Below are positions 12,990 to 19,882 of a stretch of DNA of 64,000 bases, in pieces; the stretch's first letter is position 1; each line of letters opens with the position of its first letter. The notes beneath the pieces were generated by a model. That model was not told the origin of the DNA. It worked only from the letters and a program-made list of their open reading frames with translations, and searched no databases. The stretch is taken from contig JAEOSF010000016.1 of assembly GCA_016840515.1 (NCBI GenBank), forward strand, positions 1 through 64,000, written 5' to 3'. Source of the stretch: Candidatus Borrarchaeum yapensis. GTDB taxonomy: Archaea; Asgardarchaeota; Sifarchaeia; Borrarchaeales; Borrarchaeaceae. A program made the translations under genes and the position numbers.

Positions 12990-13568
12990 TTATGTGATAA
13001 GACTTCTCCTTTTATGTTGGTTTATCATCTGGTGGTTCATTTTCTTCAAAGTCTTACCTTTCCTCTCTGAAAGAATCAATTTTGCGAGTTCTTCCATGAC
13101 GTCAACCACGTGTTCACCAGTTTTTGCTGAAGTTTCAAAAAACATTAAACCTTCTTTAAGTGCATAGCGTTCTCCTTCTTCTCGAGGTATGACACTGTTT
13201 TCTACCAAGTCGATCTTATTAGCAACTAGGATTACTGGTAACTTTCCACATTGAGCATCCAAATCTGAAAACCATTTATCAAGATGATCAAAGCTTTCTT
13301 TATTCGTGACATCGTAAATAATTAATGCCCCATCGGCACCTCGATAATATTGAGGTCTTATGCAATCAAACAATTCTTGTCCGCCTGTATCCCAAATAGT
13401 CAGCGTTGCCTCGCTATCATCGATAAGAAGTCTCTGTACTGCATGTGCTACTCCAATAGTCTTTTTATATTTCGAGTTGAATTCTTCATGAACGTATCGC
13501 CTTATTACGCTTGTTTTGCCAACGGAACCGTCCCCTACGACAATCACCTTAAAGATATAATGAGTCAT
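12990..13568 (-). CDS. Rab/Ras-like small GTPase 1
   Basis: 192 residues with all G motifs: G1 GDGSVGKTS, switch-I Thr in KKTIGVAHA, G3 WDTGGQE, G4 NKID and G5 ETSAKTG. The stretch QYYRGADGALIIYDVTNKESFDHLDKW is typical of the Rab branch. The switch-II Gln needed for GTP hydrolysis is present. The C-terminus is basic (RKGKTLKKMNHQMINQHKRRS) and has no Cys, so no prenyl anchor is possible; electrostatic membrane contact is an inference. The ATG at 13568 follows GAGTGAT. It is a paralogue of the next gene upstream, and convergent with the longin-like gene. Confidence 0.93.
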   Translation of the reverse strand: MTHYIFKVIVVGDGSVGKTSVIRRYVHEEFNSKYKKTIGVAHAVQRLLIDDSEATLTIWDTGGQELFDCIRPQYYRGADGALIIYDVTNKESFDHLDKWFSDLDAQCGKLPVILVANKIDLVENSVIPREEGERYALKEGLMFFETSAKTGEHVVDVMEELAKLILSERKGKTLKKMNHQMINQHKRRSLIT

Positions 13569-13795
13569 CAAATATCACTCAATCAAAAAAATACGTCTTA
13601 TACCTATGGAAATAATGATATTTTATCCCTTTTAATATAAATATTCTAGTAGGTTTCTCCGCAATGAAAAACAAAATCTATTTGACGGAAATGTTAATAG
13701 ATCGAAATGTTATTTTGGCGTCTTTGTAAAATAATATAAAAAATAAAATTATAAAATTATAGACTAAATTACCCTCTTTTATGTAATCCAATCGA

Positions 13796-14383
13796 TTACT
13801 TTGCACGGGCTGCTCTAAACTTATTGCTTCTTGAGATAATCAATTTTGCGAGTTCTTCCATGACCTCAAATACATTTTCACCAGTTTTTGCCGAGGTTTC
13901 AGAATAACTTACAAAATTTTGACGCGCATATTTCTCCCCTGCTTCAGCAGGAATGACTCTTTTATCTGTTAAATCAATTTTATTACCAATAATGATTTTT
14001 GGGATCTTTCCACAGTTATTGTCTAATTCATTTAACCATTTATCAAGATGGTCAAAGCTTTCTTTATTCGTGACATCGTAAATAATTAGCACTCCGTGAG
14101 CACCTCGATAGTATTGAGGTCTTATACAATCGAATAATTCTTGTCCACCTGTGTCCCAAATCGTCATGGTAATTTCAGTATCGTCTAAACAAAGTCTCTT
14201 TAATGCGTGAGAAACTCCAATAGTTTTGATGTATTTCGAATCGAATTCTTCATGAACGTATCGTCTAATGATACTTGTTTTGCCAGCTGTCCCATCCCCA
14301 ACTGCAATGATCTTAAAAATAAATTGTCTGACTTTACGTACATCTCGACTCACAAAGCTATTTGTTAGTGATTGTGTCATCAT
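13796..14383 (-). CDS. Rab/Ras-like small GTPase 2
   Basis: 195 residues, close paralogue of the gene at 12990-13568. G1 is GDGTAGKTS, the switch-I Thr is in IKTIGVSHA, G3 WDTGGQE, G4 NKID and G5 ETSAKTG. It has a longer N-terminus (MMTQSLTNSFVSRDVRKVRQ) and a short basic C-terminus (RSNKFRAARAK) without a prenylation Cys. RRYVHEEF and FDCIRPQYYRGA are shared between the two, pointing to a recent tandem duplication. GTGAGGAAA precedes the ATG at 14383; the GTG at 14392 is the alternative. Such GTPases are switches; partners are unknown, but the nearby longin-like protein is the obvious candidate. Confidence 0.93.
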   Translation of the reverse strand: MMTQSLTNSFVSRDVRKVRQFIFKIIAVGDGTAGKTSIIRRYVHEEFDSKYIKTIGVSHALKRLCLDDTEITMTIWDTGGQELFDCIRPQYYRGAHGVLIIYDVTNKESFDHLDKWLNELDNNCGKIPKIIIGNKIDLTDKRVIPAEAGEKYARQNFVSYSETSAKTGENVFEVMEELAKLIISRSNKFRAARAK

Positions 14384-14715
14384 TTTCCTCACTTATTTTC
14401 TTTGGTTTTTTCTGTTACGTTCTGGTTGTTAAGTTGTCCCTTCGACTCACATGGTCAACTGCAAATTATCAACGATGCGTAAGATTTAGAAACCTCTTTA
14501 AAAAAGATTTGAGACCACTAAGTACAAGATTGAGATCAATTTTTTTCATAGGCGCGTGTGTGTTCTAGTATTAAATATTTGCTCATTCGTCTATTATTAA
14601 CGTTATGAGAAAAGTCTCCGCAAATTATTGCCATGTTCTTCTGAAATATATCTAAAATTTTTGATTGTAATTCATGTTACTTGCTAAAAATTAGCAATGA
14701 GAAAAAATACTATGG

Positions 14716-14901
14716 CTAGATTTTGCCTCTAATCTTAACAGAATCTATTGTTAATTTTATCTCGACATCTGTTATTATCATTGCTGAGATCAAGGATTCA
14801 TCTCTTGGAAGATCTAATGTGCTCCCTAAAGTTTCTATGAAGCCTTGAGGAATAGTTTCAGACCAATTTTTTATTATGATCGCGAACTTGGTAGCGATCA
14901 T
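14716..14901 (-). CDS. Small ORF downstream of the IS, possible gene or remnant
   Basis: An open frame of 61 residues from ATG 14901 (MIATKFAIIIKNWSETIPQ ... DSVKIRGKI). The frame continues upstream into the right end of the IS. If the IS is removed by joining the flanking GTTATCAA repeats, a stop lies a few codons upstream, so the coding part is complete or nearly so. Codon use looks natural but no family is recognised and no clear ribosome binding site is present. It could be a small gene whose promoter was displaced by the IS, or a chance frame. Confidence 0.25.
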   Translation of the reverse strand: MIATKFAIIIKNWSETIPQGFIETLGSTLDLPRDESLISAMIITDVEIKLTIDSVKIRGKI

Positions 14902-14919
14902 CTCGTCATAGGTTATCAA

Positions 14920-16447
14920 TTTTATTAAACTTGTACTACACGAGTACAAGAATTTGTAACAAATTGTTCATACGAAGTCTGGACCAGGTCCCTTATTCGC
15001 ACAGGCTGAAACCAGCAGCCCCTATCGACTAGTTTTCGGATGAAATCATCGCCGATTACTTTTCTGAGGATGTTGAGTGCACCATTCACATCGGCATTTA
15101 GGAGATAGTTTGTTCCTTTAAACAAACTCGTGCTGTGCGACACCCTAAGTATTTCTGGTGTTTTGTAATTACTTCAAAGTCTAGTGCATTACATTTGGAT
15201 GTATAGGCCTCGTTTACTTCGTGAACAGCGATACCAACTAGTTCTGCTTTGTACGTAATTAACTTCTTTAACTTCTGCAGCGGTATATTCACGAAGTTTT
15301 GATTATTTTTTTTGCCCAGATTCACACCGTCCTTGATATGCTTTAATTCGCCCACGCAAATATTCCCTATGTCGTTTGCCAAGCAGTATTTGATGATAAA
15401 TCGCGCGGTTTTGTGCAGATAGTCGTATACCTCACTGTTTCGTCTAATCGTCAGGTCGTCTAGCAACTGTGTCCACCTAAGGTGCTGTTTGTCTTTGATT
15501 GACCGCAATTTAGCGCGTTTCTTGTTCCAAAACTGGTTTACAGACTTTAAAACTCTCCCTGAAACGATAAATGGTTTTATATTTCTGTTTTCGATGGCGG
15601 TAACTAAATTGTTAATGCCTAGATCAAGGGCAAGATAGCGGTTTTTATCCAAGTTTGGATTGACTACTGCTTGTTCGTGATACACGATTTCAATTTCAAA
15701 ATATTTTCTTCTCGGTAGAATTCTAACTTGCTGATAAGAAGAGAAGTCTTTGTGAGGGTAATATGGTATAGAAATTCGGAGAGGCTCTTTATACTGCGGG
15801 TAGACATCTTTAAAGCAGTGTGACATGGTTATGACCAACTCGCAATTATTTTTGATTTTAGAATTTTGGTTAGTAAAAATCAACATGAATTGGTCATCTT
15901 TGTCCTTATAATTAGGGATACGTGGTCGGCCATTATATTTTTCCGGATGTTGTTTCCAGTCCTTGATCGCCTTAAAAAAGGACGCCCAATTCTTATCAAG
16001 TACTTTAATAATCTGTTGTGAGGTTTGTGCTTTTAGTAATTTGTAGTTACGAGAAGACTTTTTTAATTGCAAATTTAATTGGTAATACCGAGTCCAGAGA
16101 CCATTGGCGAAAAATTCTTGTCTGATAATGTAATTCGCTTCGTTATAGAGATTTTTGGAGATATAAGCGAGTATGTCCAGTTGTTCTGATCTTGGATATC
16201 TAAATCTATAGACTAATCTCATATTCAAACGCCGTGATCATTTTAGAAGCGAATGTTGTTCTTTTTTTGATGAGTACCATGAAATTACAAATGACAGTAA
16301 ATATAAAACAACACTCAACTATTTGAGCATAGGGAGACCTGTGTAAAAGTGAAGCATTCAACTGCAGCAAATCATCCCTCAACGAGTTGAGAGGGTTTTC
16401 TGGCGAATTGGATACATATAAGTACTCTCCCTCCACTAAGTTCACTT
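14920..16447 (-). mobile_element. IS605/IS1341-type insertion sequence carrying tnpB only
   Basis: About 1.5 kb, bounded by the 8-bp direct repeat GTTATCAA (14912-14919 and 16448-16455; TTGATAAC in element orientation, with TTGAT being a known target for this family). The right end has a hairpin CTTGTAC-7-GTACAAG (14930-14950). The left end has a hairpin CCCTCAAC-GA-GTTGAG-AGGG (16376-16395) followed, in element orientation, by GATGA, TTCACTTT and GGTCTCCCTA, shared with the small derivatives at 6388 and 43286. There is no tnpA (Y1 transposase), so movement would need a helper. Confidence 0.75.
14925..16222 (-). pseudogene. tnpB: TnpB RNA-guided nuclease (OrfB), frameshifted
   Basis: The first frame (to 15098) holds the N-terminal helical domain and two RuvC acidic residues: Asp in YLALDLGINN and Glu in ICVGELKHI. 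At the GGG at 15143-15145 one base is missing. The remainder continues in another frame (14925-15143) with [27 protein letters not shown], supplying the third RuvC Asp, and ends [13 protein letters not shown]. The zinc-finger region is degenerate ([21 protein letters not shown] has one Cys), as in a known archaeal TnpB subgroup. TnpB uses an omega-RNA from the element's 3' end to cut DNA. As read, the protein would lack its third catalytic residue. Confidence 0.85.
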
Positions 16448-16560: not shown

Positions 16561-17124
16561 TTGATACAACTAATAACATTTTCATCCATAATCATTCTTT
16601 TTAATTTGATGCTCTACACAAAAATATCACGAAAGGTGGCAGAGAATGCATTTAAAACATCAAAAACGCCAAAATTTACAACGAATGGCGTAGCTTGTGA
16701 CCTGAAAAACTATTGTTTTACGTGTGTGGTTAATTCAGCCCCCAAAGACTCTTCAGGACGAAATTTAGGTTATCGTTGCAAACCATGCAATATGGAGATA
16801 CTTTGTCCTGCTGGTATCGCACGTCAATATGACGAAAAAAGTGGCGAAATCATAGATGTGTGCATAAAATGTGGAAGAAAATTAGAGAAGTTCTCTTTTT
16901 ATCTCAACAATAAAATTCTAAAAGGATATAAAACTTTTCCAGCGGATGCCATAACTGGTCGTTCTTTAAACATGAATGCTACAATGGACGTACCTGAATG
17001 GGTTTTCTGGGCTAAACCAGGTGATATAGCAGAAGTCAAAGCTAATGTATCGCCATGTATAGGTAACAAAGAACTAAACTGTCTTGTAGTGGTCTTAAAT
17101 TCTAAGAGTTGTATCTCTCGCTAA
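16561..17124 (+). CDS. Cys-rich WAKPGD-repeat protein A, membrane-anchored
   Basis: 187 residues of no recognised family. Residues 1-20 form a hydrophobic helix (LITFSSIIILFNLMLYT), a likely signal anchor. Residues about 45-115 hold paired cysteines: CDLKNYCFTCVV, YRCKPCNMEILCPAG and VCIKCGRK, suggesting zinc or Fe-S binding. Residues about 130-187 form one copy of a unit MDVPEWVFWAKPGDIAEVKANVSPCIGNKELNCLVVVLNSKSC. The start is TTG, supported by GGTGAGGGAAG upstream. A paralogue with two units follows at 17405. The pair lies beside the IS; function unknown. Confidence 0.65.
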   Translation: MIQLITFSSIIILFNLMLYTKISRKVAENAFKTSKTPKFTTNGVACDLKNYCFTCVVNSAPKDSSGRNLGYRCKPCNMEILCPAGIARQYDEKSGEIIDVCIKCGRKLEKFSFYLNNKILKGYKTFPADAITGRSLNMNATMDVPEWVFWAKPGDIAEVKANVSPCIGNKELNCLVVVLNSKSCISR

Positions 17125-17404
17125 AGTAACACTTTCAGTAACATTACTTTTTAGACGATATTGAGCGTTTCCTAGTTTACTCAGGGGACTTCCGCCGCAT
17201 AAGTTAAAATCTTATTTAACTTGTCTCAAGAATTATTTCATTTCATTTCCAGCCGACAAAAACTCTCTCTGAAAGGTTTTATTTCTTTAGAGTGGTCATG
17301 TAGACCTACTAGAATTCATGAAATTCAAGTTAACCATTAGTCTCTTAAACTAAGAGTTCATTACATTATTTGGGAAATGATCAAAAGGGGTATTCGAGCG
17401 AAAG

Positions 17405-18076
17405 ATGAAATTGCCAACCATGGGTATAACATGTGATCTGAAAGATTATTGTTTTTCATGCGTTGTTGAGTCAACTCCTAGAGATTCTGCAGGAAAAAAC
17501 ATGGGATATCATTGCAAAATATGTAAAATAGATATTCTATGCCCAGCAGGTGTCGGACGCCAATATGACAAAAATACTGGAGAAATCATAGCGGTATGTC
17601 CAAAATGCAGAAACAAGTTAGAGAAGGATTCTTATTCACTCAATACTAAAATAAAAAAAGGTTATATATCATTTCCTGAAGATACTACATTAAATTCTCC
17701 ATTGGAGATGAATGCAGTAATAGAAGTGCCTGATTGGGTGTTATGGGCTAAACCAGGCGATATAGCACAAATAAATGCTAAAGTATCTCCCTGCATTGGG
17801 AATAAGCAGTTAAACTGCCTTGTTGTCATTTTGGATTGTAAGAGCTTTTTCGCCGAAGACTCTAATTTAGAAAAAGCAGATGATTCTTATCCTGAAGATG
17901 CCCTAATAAGTCCTCCATTAAAGATGAATGTTTCAATGGAAGTATCAGATTGGATTTTTTGGGCAAAACCAGGTGATATCGCAGATGTCAAAGCAAAGGT
18001 ATCTCCTTGTATCAATAATAAAGAACTAGACTGCCTTGTCGTTGTCTTGGGTTCAAAGAGTTGTTTTTCTAGGTAA
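17405..18076 (+). CDS. Cys-rich WAKPGD-repeat protein B, two repeat units
   Basis: 223 residues, paralogue of the preceding gene but without the N-terminal hydrophobic anchor. The Cys-rich module is the same (CDLKDYCFSCVV, YHCKICKIDILCPAG, VCPKCRNK). The C-terminal unit is duplicated: PDWVLWAKPGDIAQINAKVSPCIGNK and SDWIFWAKPGDIADVKAKVSPCINNK. Both genes end SKSC-x-SR-stop at the same place, so the C-terminus is intact although an IS-end-like hairpin follows at once. One protein is predicted membrane-bound and the other soluble. No known activity can be given. Confidence 0.68.
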   Translation: MKLPTMGITCDLKDYCFSCVVESTPRDSAGKNMGYHCKICKIDILCPAGVGRQYDKNTGEIIAVCPKCRNKLEKDSYSLNTKIKKGYISFPEDTTLNSPLEMNAVIEVPDWVLWAKPGDIAQINAKVSPCIGNKQLNCLVVILDCKSFFAEDSNLEKADDSYPEDALISPPLKMNVSMEVSDWIFWAKPGDIADVKAKVSPCINNKELDCLVVVLGSKSCFSR

Positions 18077-18104
18077 ACTACCTCACGCTAAAGTTGTGAG
18101 GCTT
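18072..18104 (-). repeat. Solo IS605-type right-end hairpin
   Basis: CCTCAC-9-GTGAGG (18081-18101) with flanking AACTACCTC / GAGGCTT matches the right-end hairpin of the small elements (CCTCGCG ... CGCGAGG preceded by the complement of GGTAGTTCAC). Only the end is present here; no left end is seen nearby. It sits directly after the stop codon of protein B and may serve as its terminator. Confidence 0.5.
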
Positions 18105-18118
18105 TTAGCTGTGCTAGG

Positions 18119-18254
18119 TCTCAGTCCTCTACATATCTCAGTCCTCTACATATCTCAGTCCTCTACATATCTCAGTCCTCTACATATCTCAGTCCTCTAC
18201 ATATCTCAGTCCTCTACATATCTCAGTCCTCTACATATCTCAGTCCTCTACATA
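18119..18254. repeat. Eight perfect tandem copies of a 17-bp unit
   Basis: TCTCAGTCCTCTACATA is repeated eight times without a mismatch over 136 bases, immediately after the hairpin at 18072-18104. The unit has no strong palindrome, and there are no spacers, so this is not a CRISPR. It lies between protein B and the 3' end of guaA. The perfect identity suggests recent expansion by slippage or an assembly-sensitive minisatellite. Confidence 0.9.
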
Positions 18255-18385
18255 CCCATGATTCTACCTAAGAGAGAAAATTTCGCTAGTGTGTTTTAAA
18301 CAGACTGATATATGAATTAAATGAAATAAAACATTACAAGTGAGTATTTAACTTTAAAGAAAACCATGAAGGCATTAAATTGCAT

Positions 18386-19882
18386 CTATTGAGGTTCCAT
18401 ACATGCTGGAGGTTTAGAAGAAATAGCATAGGTAACCCACGTGACATTTTGGACTTCATTTGTTATCCGATTTGAGATCTTTTCAAGCACTTCATAAGGC
18501 AATTTCATCCAGTCTGCAGTCATGATATCATCGCTTTGAATAACTCTCACTGTGACAATATGTCCAATATTACGTGCGTCGCCCATCACACCCGTAGCTA
18601 GATCATCTCCAACAACTGCAAAACACATAAAACATTGATCATAGATTCCTGCATTCTTCAACTCTTCTTCTACAATATAACTAGCGTCTCTACATATACG
18701 TATTTTGTCTTTTGTTATCTCTCCTATGATTCTTGCAGCTAATCCAGGGCCAGGGAATGGATGGCGCTTCCAAGGCAAATTTAATTGACGTGCAACTTCA
18801 CGAACTTCATCCTTATACAGTTCTTTTAATGGCTCTAATAATTCAAATTCCATGTCTGGAAGGACAACATTATGATGTGATTTAATGCGAGAAGCTTCTT
18901 CTGATGGATCTGCACTTTCAATTCGATCGGAATAGATCGTTCCCTGTCCTAAAAAGCGAATGTTTCCATATTTTTGTTCAAATCCTTTTGCTGCTTTTTC
19001 AAAAACCTCGATGAAGGTACTAGCTATGATATGCCTCTTTTCTTCAGGATCTCTTATCCCTCTAAGTCGTTGCAGAAATAATTCGCTGACTTCAATCTGT
19101 TCTAAGTTTTCAAATTTCAAGTAAGAAATTGCGTCTTCAACTTCATTTTTTCTTAGGAGGCCATGATCCACAAAAATGCAGTGCAGTTTATCTCCAATAG
19201 CGCGATTAACAAGTGTAGCTGCAACTGTTGAGTCGATTCCACCAGAAACTCCCATGAGAACATGATCATCTTTGACAATTTCTCTAATTTCTTGCACTGA
19301 TTTCTCGATGAAATCACCCATAGACCACTCTTTTTTACATTGGCAGATTTCAAACACGAAATTTGACAAAATCTGCATTCCATGTAAGGTATGTTGTACT
19401 TCAGGATGAAATTGCAGTCCATAGAAATTCTTGTAACCATATGCTGCCATTGGGGTATTTTCTGTATGTCCGTAGACCGTAGCTTCATTAAAGTCTGTTA
19501 CTTTGTCTCCATGACTCATCCATACAATCTCTTTGTCTGAAAGGTCTTTGAAAAGAGTATTGTTATTATCAACATAGAGTACGGTTTTTCCATATTCTCT
19601 CGTTGTACTTGGATCGACTTTACCGCCAAGTTCGTGCGCTATTAGCTGGTGACCATAGCAAATCCCAAGCATAGGAATTTTGAATTTACTAACATCAAGT
19701 TTTGGAGCATTTGATGCATAAACGCTGTTAGGTCCACCAGAGAGGATAATTCCTTTATATTCGTTCTCATCAAATTCTACTTTATACGGGTTTATTTCGG
19801 AATATACGCCTAATTGCCTGATTCTTCGTGCGATTAGGTGAGTATATTGTCCGCCAAAATCTATAACGACAATTTTATCCAT
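18386..19882 (-). CDS. guaA: GMP synthase (glutamine-hydrolysing), fused form
   Basis: About 498 residues with an N-terminal class-I glutamine amidotransferase (GICYGHQLIA with the nucleophilic Cys, FHPEVQHT with the catalytic His) and a C-terminal ATP-pyrophosphatase (MGVSGGIDSTVAATL P-loop, RHPFPGPGLAARIIGE dimer domain). It converts XMP, ATP and glutamine to GMP. Many archaea encode the two halves separately; here they are fused as in bacteria. The ending SSKPPACMEPQ is close to the usual SKPPATIEWE. The ATG at 19882 (MDKIVVIDFGGQY) follows AAGTGA and is preferred over the track's GTG at 19891. Confidence 0.95.
   Translation of the reverse strand: MDKIVVIDFGGQYTHLIARRIRQLGVYSEINPYKVEFDENEYKGIILSGGPNSVYASNAPKLDVSKFKIPMLGICYGHQLIAHELGGKVDPSTTREYGKTVLYVDNNNTLFKDLSDKEIVWMSHGDKVTDFNEATVYGHTENTPMAAYGYKNFYGLQFHPEVQHTLHGMQILSNFVFEICQCKKEWSMGDFIEKSVQEIREIVKDDHVLMGVSGGIDSTVAATLVNRAIGDKLHCIFVDHGLLRKNEVEDAISYLKFENLEQIEVSELFLQRLRGIRDPEEKRHIIASTFIEVFEKAAKGFEQKYGNIRFLGQGTIYSDRIESADPSEEASRIKSHHNVVLPDMEFELLEPLKELYKDEVREVARQLNLPWKRHPFPGPGLAARIIGEITKDKIRICRDASYIVEEELKNAGIYDQCFMCFAVVGDDLATGVMGDARNIGHIVTVRVIQSDDIMTADWMKLPYEVLEKISNRITNEVQNVTWVTYAISSKPPACMEPQ

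Follow-up and report, generated by a model that had tools for sequence, protein, structure and literature searches.

A paralogous gene pair in Borrarchaeum

The window, i.e., the whole stretch of 64,000 nt of Candidatus Borrarchaeum yapensis that was analysed, carries two neighbouring open reading frames on the forward strand, which the first-pass annotation had described from the sequence as paralogues at positions 16561-18076. P0001 (16561..17124) starts with TTG and encodes a protein of 187 aa that displays a hydrophobic N-terminus, a module of eight cysteines and one C-terminal unit. P0002 (17405..18076) starts with ATG and encodes 223 aa, with the eight-Cys module followed by two C-terminal units and without an anchor. 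Both frames are open at these positions. The paralogy is also confirmed, in that P0001 was recovered (E = 9e-64) when P0002 was searched in six frames against the source genome (3.63 Mb, 124 contigs), with 61% identity across an alignment of 152 residues. The same search reveals two remoter stand-alone relatives on other contigs (42% and 33% identity; ORFs of 100 and 91 aa).

The closest named record to P0002 is from Candidatus Borrarchaeum weybense lw60_2018_gm2_56 (L013), with 94% identity over the full length. Candidatus B. weybense is an Asgard archaeon of the class Sifarchaeia (PMC9723677). Its orthologs of P0001 (L013:4153-4719) and P0002 (L013:5001-5672) are followed by GMP synthase, and the gene order is that of the window; the P0001 start codon is ATG in B. 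weybense and TTG in the window. The dN/dS ratios between the window and B. weybense (Nei-Gojobori) are 0.177 for P0001 and 0.173 for P0002; GMP synthase gives 0.088, and other neighbours fall at 0.14-0.22. The presence of both genes in the same order in B. weybense, together with these ratios, shows that P0001 and P0002 are maintained coding genes under purifying selection.

A scan with P0002 of one genome per species (84,980 species) found no locus beyond B. weybense; a single-protein query of this type reaches close relatives only. The pair is missing from the other two Borrarchaeum genomes, but this carries little weight because they are 76% and 69% complete and GMP synthase was not clearly found in them either. 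The pair is probably best explained by a tandem duplication within a small Asgard protein family, found so far in Borrarchaeum only.

The hydrophobic segment of P0001 (16564..16614, forward strand; IQLITFSSIIILFNLML) is a probable membrane anchor. It has a mean hydropathy of 2.1 over 17 residues and is kept in the B. weybense ortholog, where the value is 2.3. Lys and Arg residues come after the segment, and by the positive-inside rule the Cys module of P0001 would therefore face the cytosol. These features agree with the initial description of one anchored paralogue with a single unit and one soluble paralogue with two units, the anchor of P0001 being a probable one.

The eight-Cys module

The module spans 16675..16914 in P0001 and 17405..17650 in P0002 (both forward strand), and both proteins display the pattern C-D-x4-C-x2-C ... 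C-x2-C-x5-C ... C-x2-C. Profile A2 was made from seven module sequences, and the E-values of the window modules (1.9e-34 for P0001 and 2.5e-36 for P0002) are those of sequences that are themselves in the profile. A2 has matches in 64 of 228 Asgard genomes, which represent 19 of 62 genera; most of the matching open frames are 85-125 residues long and contain little else. Stand-alone relatives are also recovered with P0002 as a lone query, independently of A2. In addition, two further families have proteins of ~170-190 and of 310-335 residues with a weak match at the N-terminus, and a 250-residue protein from a sister family (G004) also matches weakly. These weak matches look genuine, as judged by a Cys pattern that is largely kept. 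The module represents a broad Asgard family, mostly stand-alone and unnamed in Pfam and NCBIfam, which may already hold an asCOG or arCOG cluster number.

The module had initially been given eight to ten cysteines. Eight belong to each module; the proteins have another two Cys in common (C130 and C138 in P0002), and these are within the C-terminal unit. In the B. weybense ortholog of P0002, the second unit has Thr in place of the Cys of the SPC motif; this Cys is therefore not an obligatory metal ligand, and the family-wide Cys count is eight. Conservation of the eight was assessed in a wider set of 53 aligned matches (P0002 numbering): Cys 10 is present in 42/46, Cys 16 in 45/49, Cys 19 in 50/50, Cys 37 in 53/53, Cys 40 in 44/53, Cys 46 in 52/53, Cys 65 in 53/53 and Cys 68 in 52/53. 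The substitutes at position 40 are Asp (8) and Glu (1), with the caveat that the alignment may set a neighbouring residue there in some proteins. Asp commonly serves as a ligand of zinc.

Two interleaved Zn(Cys)4 sites are proposed for the module, whereby Cys 37, 40, 65 and 68 would form site A, and Cys 10, 16, 19 and 46 would form site B. Site A would consist of two zinc knuckles that close a zinc ribbon. This pairing is supported by the losses observed in individual proteins, the numbers being small and the changes common by descent: the L108 protein has neither Cys 40 nor Cys 68, and proteins that begin with CDC (L062, L063, L102, L108) are without Cys 16.

The AlphaFold model of P0002, made with four sequences, has a mean pLDDT of 34, with values of 52-66 per block in residues 21-80. 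This low-confidence model places strands at residues 32-37, 42-44, 51-55, 60-64 and 73-77, around both CxxC knuckles, and the layout is tentatively zinc-ribbon-like: both knuckles of the zinc-ribbon superfamily are present and the strand order fits, at the pLDDT of 52-66 given for residues 21-80. A Foldseek search with the model gave no match at E ≤ 0.001, and PDB sequence profiles gave chance-level matches to the module, the best with E = 0.28. The conservation of the cysteines, the Cys-to-Asp swaps, the strand pattern and the zinc-ribbon-like character of the weak library matches make it very probable that the metal is zinc.

The first-pass annotation knew of no named family for these proteins, and library searches are in accord. 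The best Pfam match of the window proteins scores 18.4 bits against a cut-off of 27.3, NCBIfam gave no match, and PADLOC and PHROGs gave nothing convincing. A match to a described domain family would have spoken against novelty; profile searches with both proteins returned sub-cut-off matches only, and those of the module are largely to zinc ribbons or RING-like fingers. No relative of whole P0002 was found among phage and plasmid records, and a literature search found nothing on the eight-Cys module.

The C-terminal unit

The unit has the pattern W-x-x-WAKPGDIA...VSPxIxNKxLxCLVV and a length of about 50-65 residues. Its single copy in P0001 is at 16930..17121 (match to the unit profile A3, E = 8.1e-42, the sequence being part of the profile), and the two copies in P0002 are at 17669..17854 (E = 5.2e-39) and 17882..18073 (E = 3.6e-42), all on the forward strand. 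Any two of the three copies agree at 32-37 of 49 residues. When A3 was run on Asgard genomes, the unit was recovered six times, in two Borrarchaeum genomes with three copies apiece. Five other Asgard genomes gave weak matches (E = 7.7e-4 to 0.035) that extend over 21-26 residues, some with stop codons; these were judged to be due to chance. Thus what was first seen as one WAKPGD-repeat family consists of two parts with separate histories, a broadly distributed Asgard module and a unit detected in Borrarchaeum only, and the name suits the local add-on only.

No match to the unit was found in PDB sequences, Pfam, NCBIfam or viral contigs. An origin of the unit from the module was considered and is unsupported (hhalign probability 0.1%). 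The unit is compact, rich in W and V, and likely strand-forming. Structure prediction, which had been suggested as a check, gave a mean pLDDT of 46, too poor to interpret, and does not provide a fold for the unit.

Genes adjacent to module relatives

In several Asgard families the stand-alone eight-Cys gene has a zinc-ribbon gene of ~75 codons just upstream, often separated from it by a few bases (L007, L008, L017-L035, L039, L042, L043, L061, L065, L099, L105, L107). In Borrarchaeum a homologue of this gene lies ~3 kb from one of the stand-alone copies (L068). One of the zinc-ribbon partners scores 28.4 bits with the TFIIB zinc-ribbon model (cut-off 29).

A different association is found in one Asgard genus together with its nearest relatives: of the 24 fetched loci that encode a module protein of 307-334 residues (L056, L059, L069, L071-L078, L080-L088), 22 have a Ras-like GTPase gene downstream in the same orientation. 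The loci counted belong to related genomes and cannot be taken as independent, and most stand-alone loci show no GTPase link. The loci with the link form two paralogous groups, with gaps of 6-19 and 192-438 bases. The long C-terminal part of the 307-334-residue proteins has no Pfam match. In a 250-aa protein from a sister family (L058:2896-3648, reverse strand), a possible roadblock domain comes after the Cys module, but this domain reaches 13.4 bits against a cut-off of 23 and has no PDB match, and it is not claimed here.

The window pair has GMP synthase downstream, on the other strand, and no same-strand downstream GTPase gene. A cluster of two Ras-like small GTPase genes is present on the reverse strand at 12990-14392 (three genes in B. 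weybense, L013:663-2919, reverse strand). The source genome has 31 Ras-like genes at E ≤ 1e-8 in 3.63 Mb. The cluster was rejected as evidence bearing on the pair, since such a neighbourhood is a ~5% event for one locus, and a TnpB-type gene separates the pair from these genes, which run in the opposite orientation.

The spacer and the history of the locus

From 16600 to ~19700, identity to B. weybense is ~90-99% (200-base bins), above that of most of the surroundings, and it is 97-99% in the section ~17000-17800. The stretch ~16600-19700 is most simply explained as a recombination tract. The spacer between the two genes (17125-17404) differs at 6/280 positions, as compared with 41/262 for the synonymous sites of both genes (p = 8e-9). 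A conserved RNA gene in the spacer was considered and set aside, as the recombination tract explains the low divergence at least in part and Rfam gave nothing credible. Recombination in the tract is likely, and extra constraint on the spacers is possible.

The spacer also carries a copy of a dispersed 28-base element, GGGGACTTCCCGCCGCATAAGTTAAAA (17184..17211, forward strand). Near-identical copies are found elsewhere in Borrarchaeum and in one more distant Asgard genome (L111-L116). Some copies are near contig ends, as expected of the ends of a multi-copy element, and from its form GGGGACTTCCCGCCGCATAAGTTAAAA is probably the end of an IS200/IS605-type element. Hairpin-plus-TTTTC stretches similar to GGGGACTTCCCGCCGCATAAGTTAAAA are also seen upstream of P0001 and after P0002.

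Upstream of the pair is a TnpB-type gene (14925-16228, reverse strand) in two overlapping frames (ORFs of 376 and 72 aa), which is probably frameshifted and is absent at the corresponding position of B. weybense (L013). Beside it, at 14716-14949 (reverse strand), a remnant of 77 residues corresponds to the C-terminal part of a gene whose intact form in B. weybense (L013:3152-3646, reverse strand) has 164 residues; no Pfam match was found. The TnpB-type insertion appears to have replaced the first part of this 164-codon gene. The region homologous to B. weybense starts very near the first codon of P0001. Between P0002 and GMP synthase there is a fast-changing array, consisting of eight perfect copies of a 17-base tandem repeat, TCTCAGTCCTCTACATA (18119-18254), of which B. 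weybense has ~2.

Possible roles of the pair

The reading that we favour, at a probability of about one half, is that P0001 and P0002 are a pair of non-catalytic cytosolic adaptor proteins, each with a zinc module and a lineage-specific unit. Their small size, the absence of a recognised enzyme domain and the purifying selection fit this reading. The zinc module would dock a constant partner and the C-terminal unit a lineage-specific partner; P0001 would hold the assembly at the membrane, and P0002 would serve as a soluble version, possibly a bivalent one. That the proteins are adaptors, and what their partners might be, is conjecture. A precedent for the coupling of the module to a regulatory partner is provided by the GTPase genes downstream of the long module proteins. 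A bolder version, which we regard as improbable, is that the module serves small GTPase pathways of Asgard archaea as a partner domain, as the gene order in that one genus would suggest; Borrarchaeum would have made from it an anchored and soluble adaptor pair that carries a newly evolved repeat with an as yet unseen fold.

The main rival to the adaptor reading, which should be considered although we think it rather unlikely, is that the module is a nucleic-acid-binding zinc ribbon acting in transcription, on RNA or at the ribosome, the unit being accessory and P0001 a membrane-tethered paralog. P0002 has a sub-cut-off match to the TiaS zinc ribbon (E = 0.0018), a relative has one to the model of a putative Zn-ribbon RNA-binding protein (E = 0.0084), and the small zinc-ribbon genes that often adjoin stand-alone relatives, among them the one that comes close to the TFIIB cut-off, point in the same direction. 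However none of these scores reaches its cut-off, a membrane anchor such as that of P0001 would be unusual in this setting, and the conserved positions of the module are not rich in basic residues. The first-pass annotation had proposed a metal or Fe-S module joined to a binding domain. A metal module with a second part is supported, and "binding domain" for the unit is still a guess. An Fe-S cluster or other redox metal, which would make the proteins electron-transfer or redox-sensing parts, appears improbable: a set of eight conserved Cys that includes CxxC pairs would in principle be able to bind clusters, and the host is presumably anaerobic, but there is no ferredoxin-like CxxCxxC motif, Cys 40 is replaced in some clades, mostly by Asp, the strand layout and the weak matches are zinc-ribbon-like, and no redox enzymes are found among the immediate neighbours.

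The element end in the spacer, the TnpB-type gene just upstream and the start of B. weybense homology at the P0001 start codon raise the question of whether the two genes are cargo carried by IS200/IS605-type mobile elements, or remains of them, retained via recombination and not for a function in the cell. This is very improbable in view of dN/dS ratios of 0.17-0.18 for both genes and the same order beside GMP synthase in two species; moreover the genome has no more copies of the unit, and the module relatives are ordinary chromosomal genes. The window pair mainly illustrates how one lineage extended the module with an orphan repeat. Of wider importance is that a small, probably metal-binding domain is widespread in Asgard archaea and nameless in the family libraries searched. 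The association of this domain in an operon with a small GTPase, seen in one Asgard genus, offers a concrete starting point for work on GTPase signalling in Asgard archaea, which is of interest for the origins of eukaryotes.

Comparison with known families

In general kind, a small zinc-ribbon-like module with an add-on domain, the proteins are ordinary; the family is unnamed in the libraries searched. The module resembles Zn_ribbon_TiaS (PF23783), Zn_ribbon_6 (PF07191) and DZR (PF12773), all at sub-threshold scores, in being a small Cys-rich domain with CxxC knuckles and a probable three-stranded sheet. It differs from them by four more conserved Cys, which are interleaved, and no model reaches its cut-off. 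DUF7571 (PF24455) is likewise a small domain, and a stand-alone relative matches it with E = 0.002, but the 18.8 bits are below the cut-off of 27; a DUF7571 search of the source genome misses the window proteins, and a DUF7571 search of ten Asgard genomes gave nothing over the gathering cut-off.

RING-type fingers (PF13920, PF24921) have two metal sites with interleaved ligands, as is proposed for the module. Stand-alone relatives match PF13920 with E = 0.0028 (17.9 of 27 bits) and PF24921 with E = 1.8e-4 (21.9 of 50 bits); however the matches span the first part only and are far under the cut-offs, and there is no sign of an E3 function. Finally, the Asgard Znr_PH_CC_SB proteins (cog.002441) have Zn ribbons among ESCRT-related domains (PMC10936438). 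They carry PH, coiled-coil, steadiness-box or winged-helix parts (PMC10936438), whereas no Pfam domain was found in the window pair. The likeness to the pair lies in the use of Zn ribbons as modules of adaptor-like Asgard proteins (PMC10936438).
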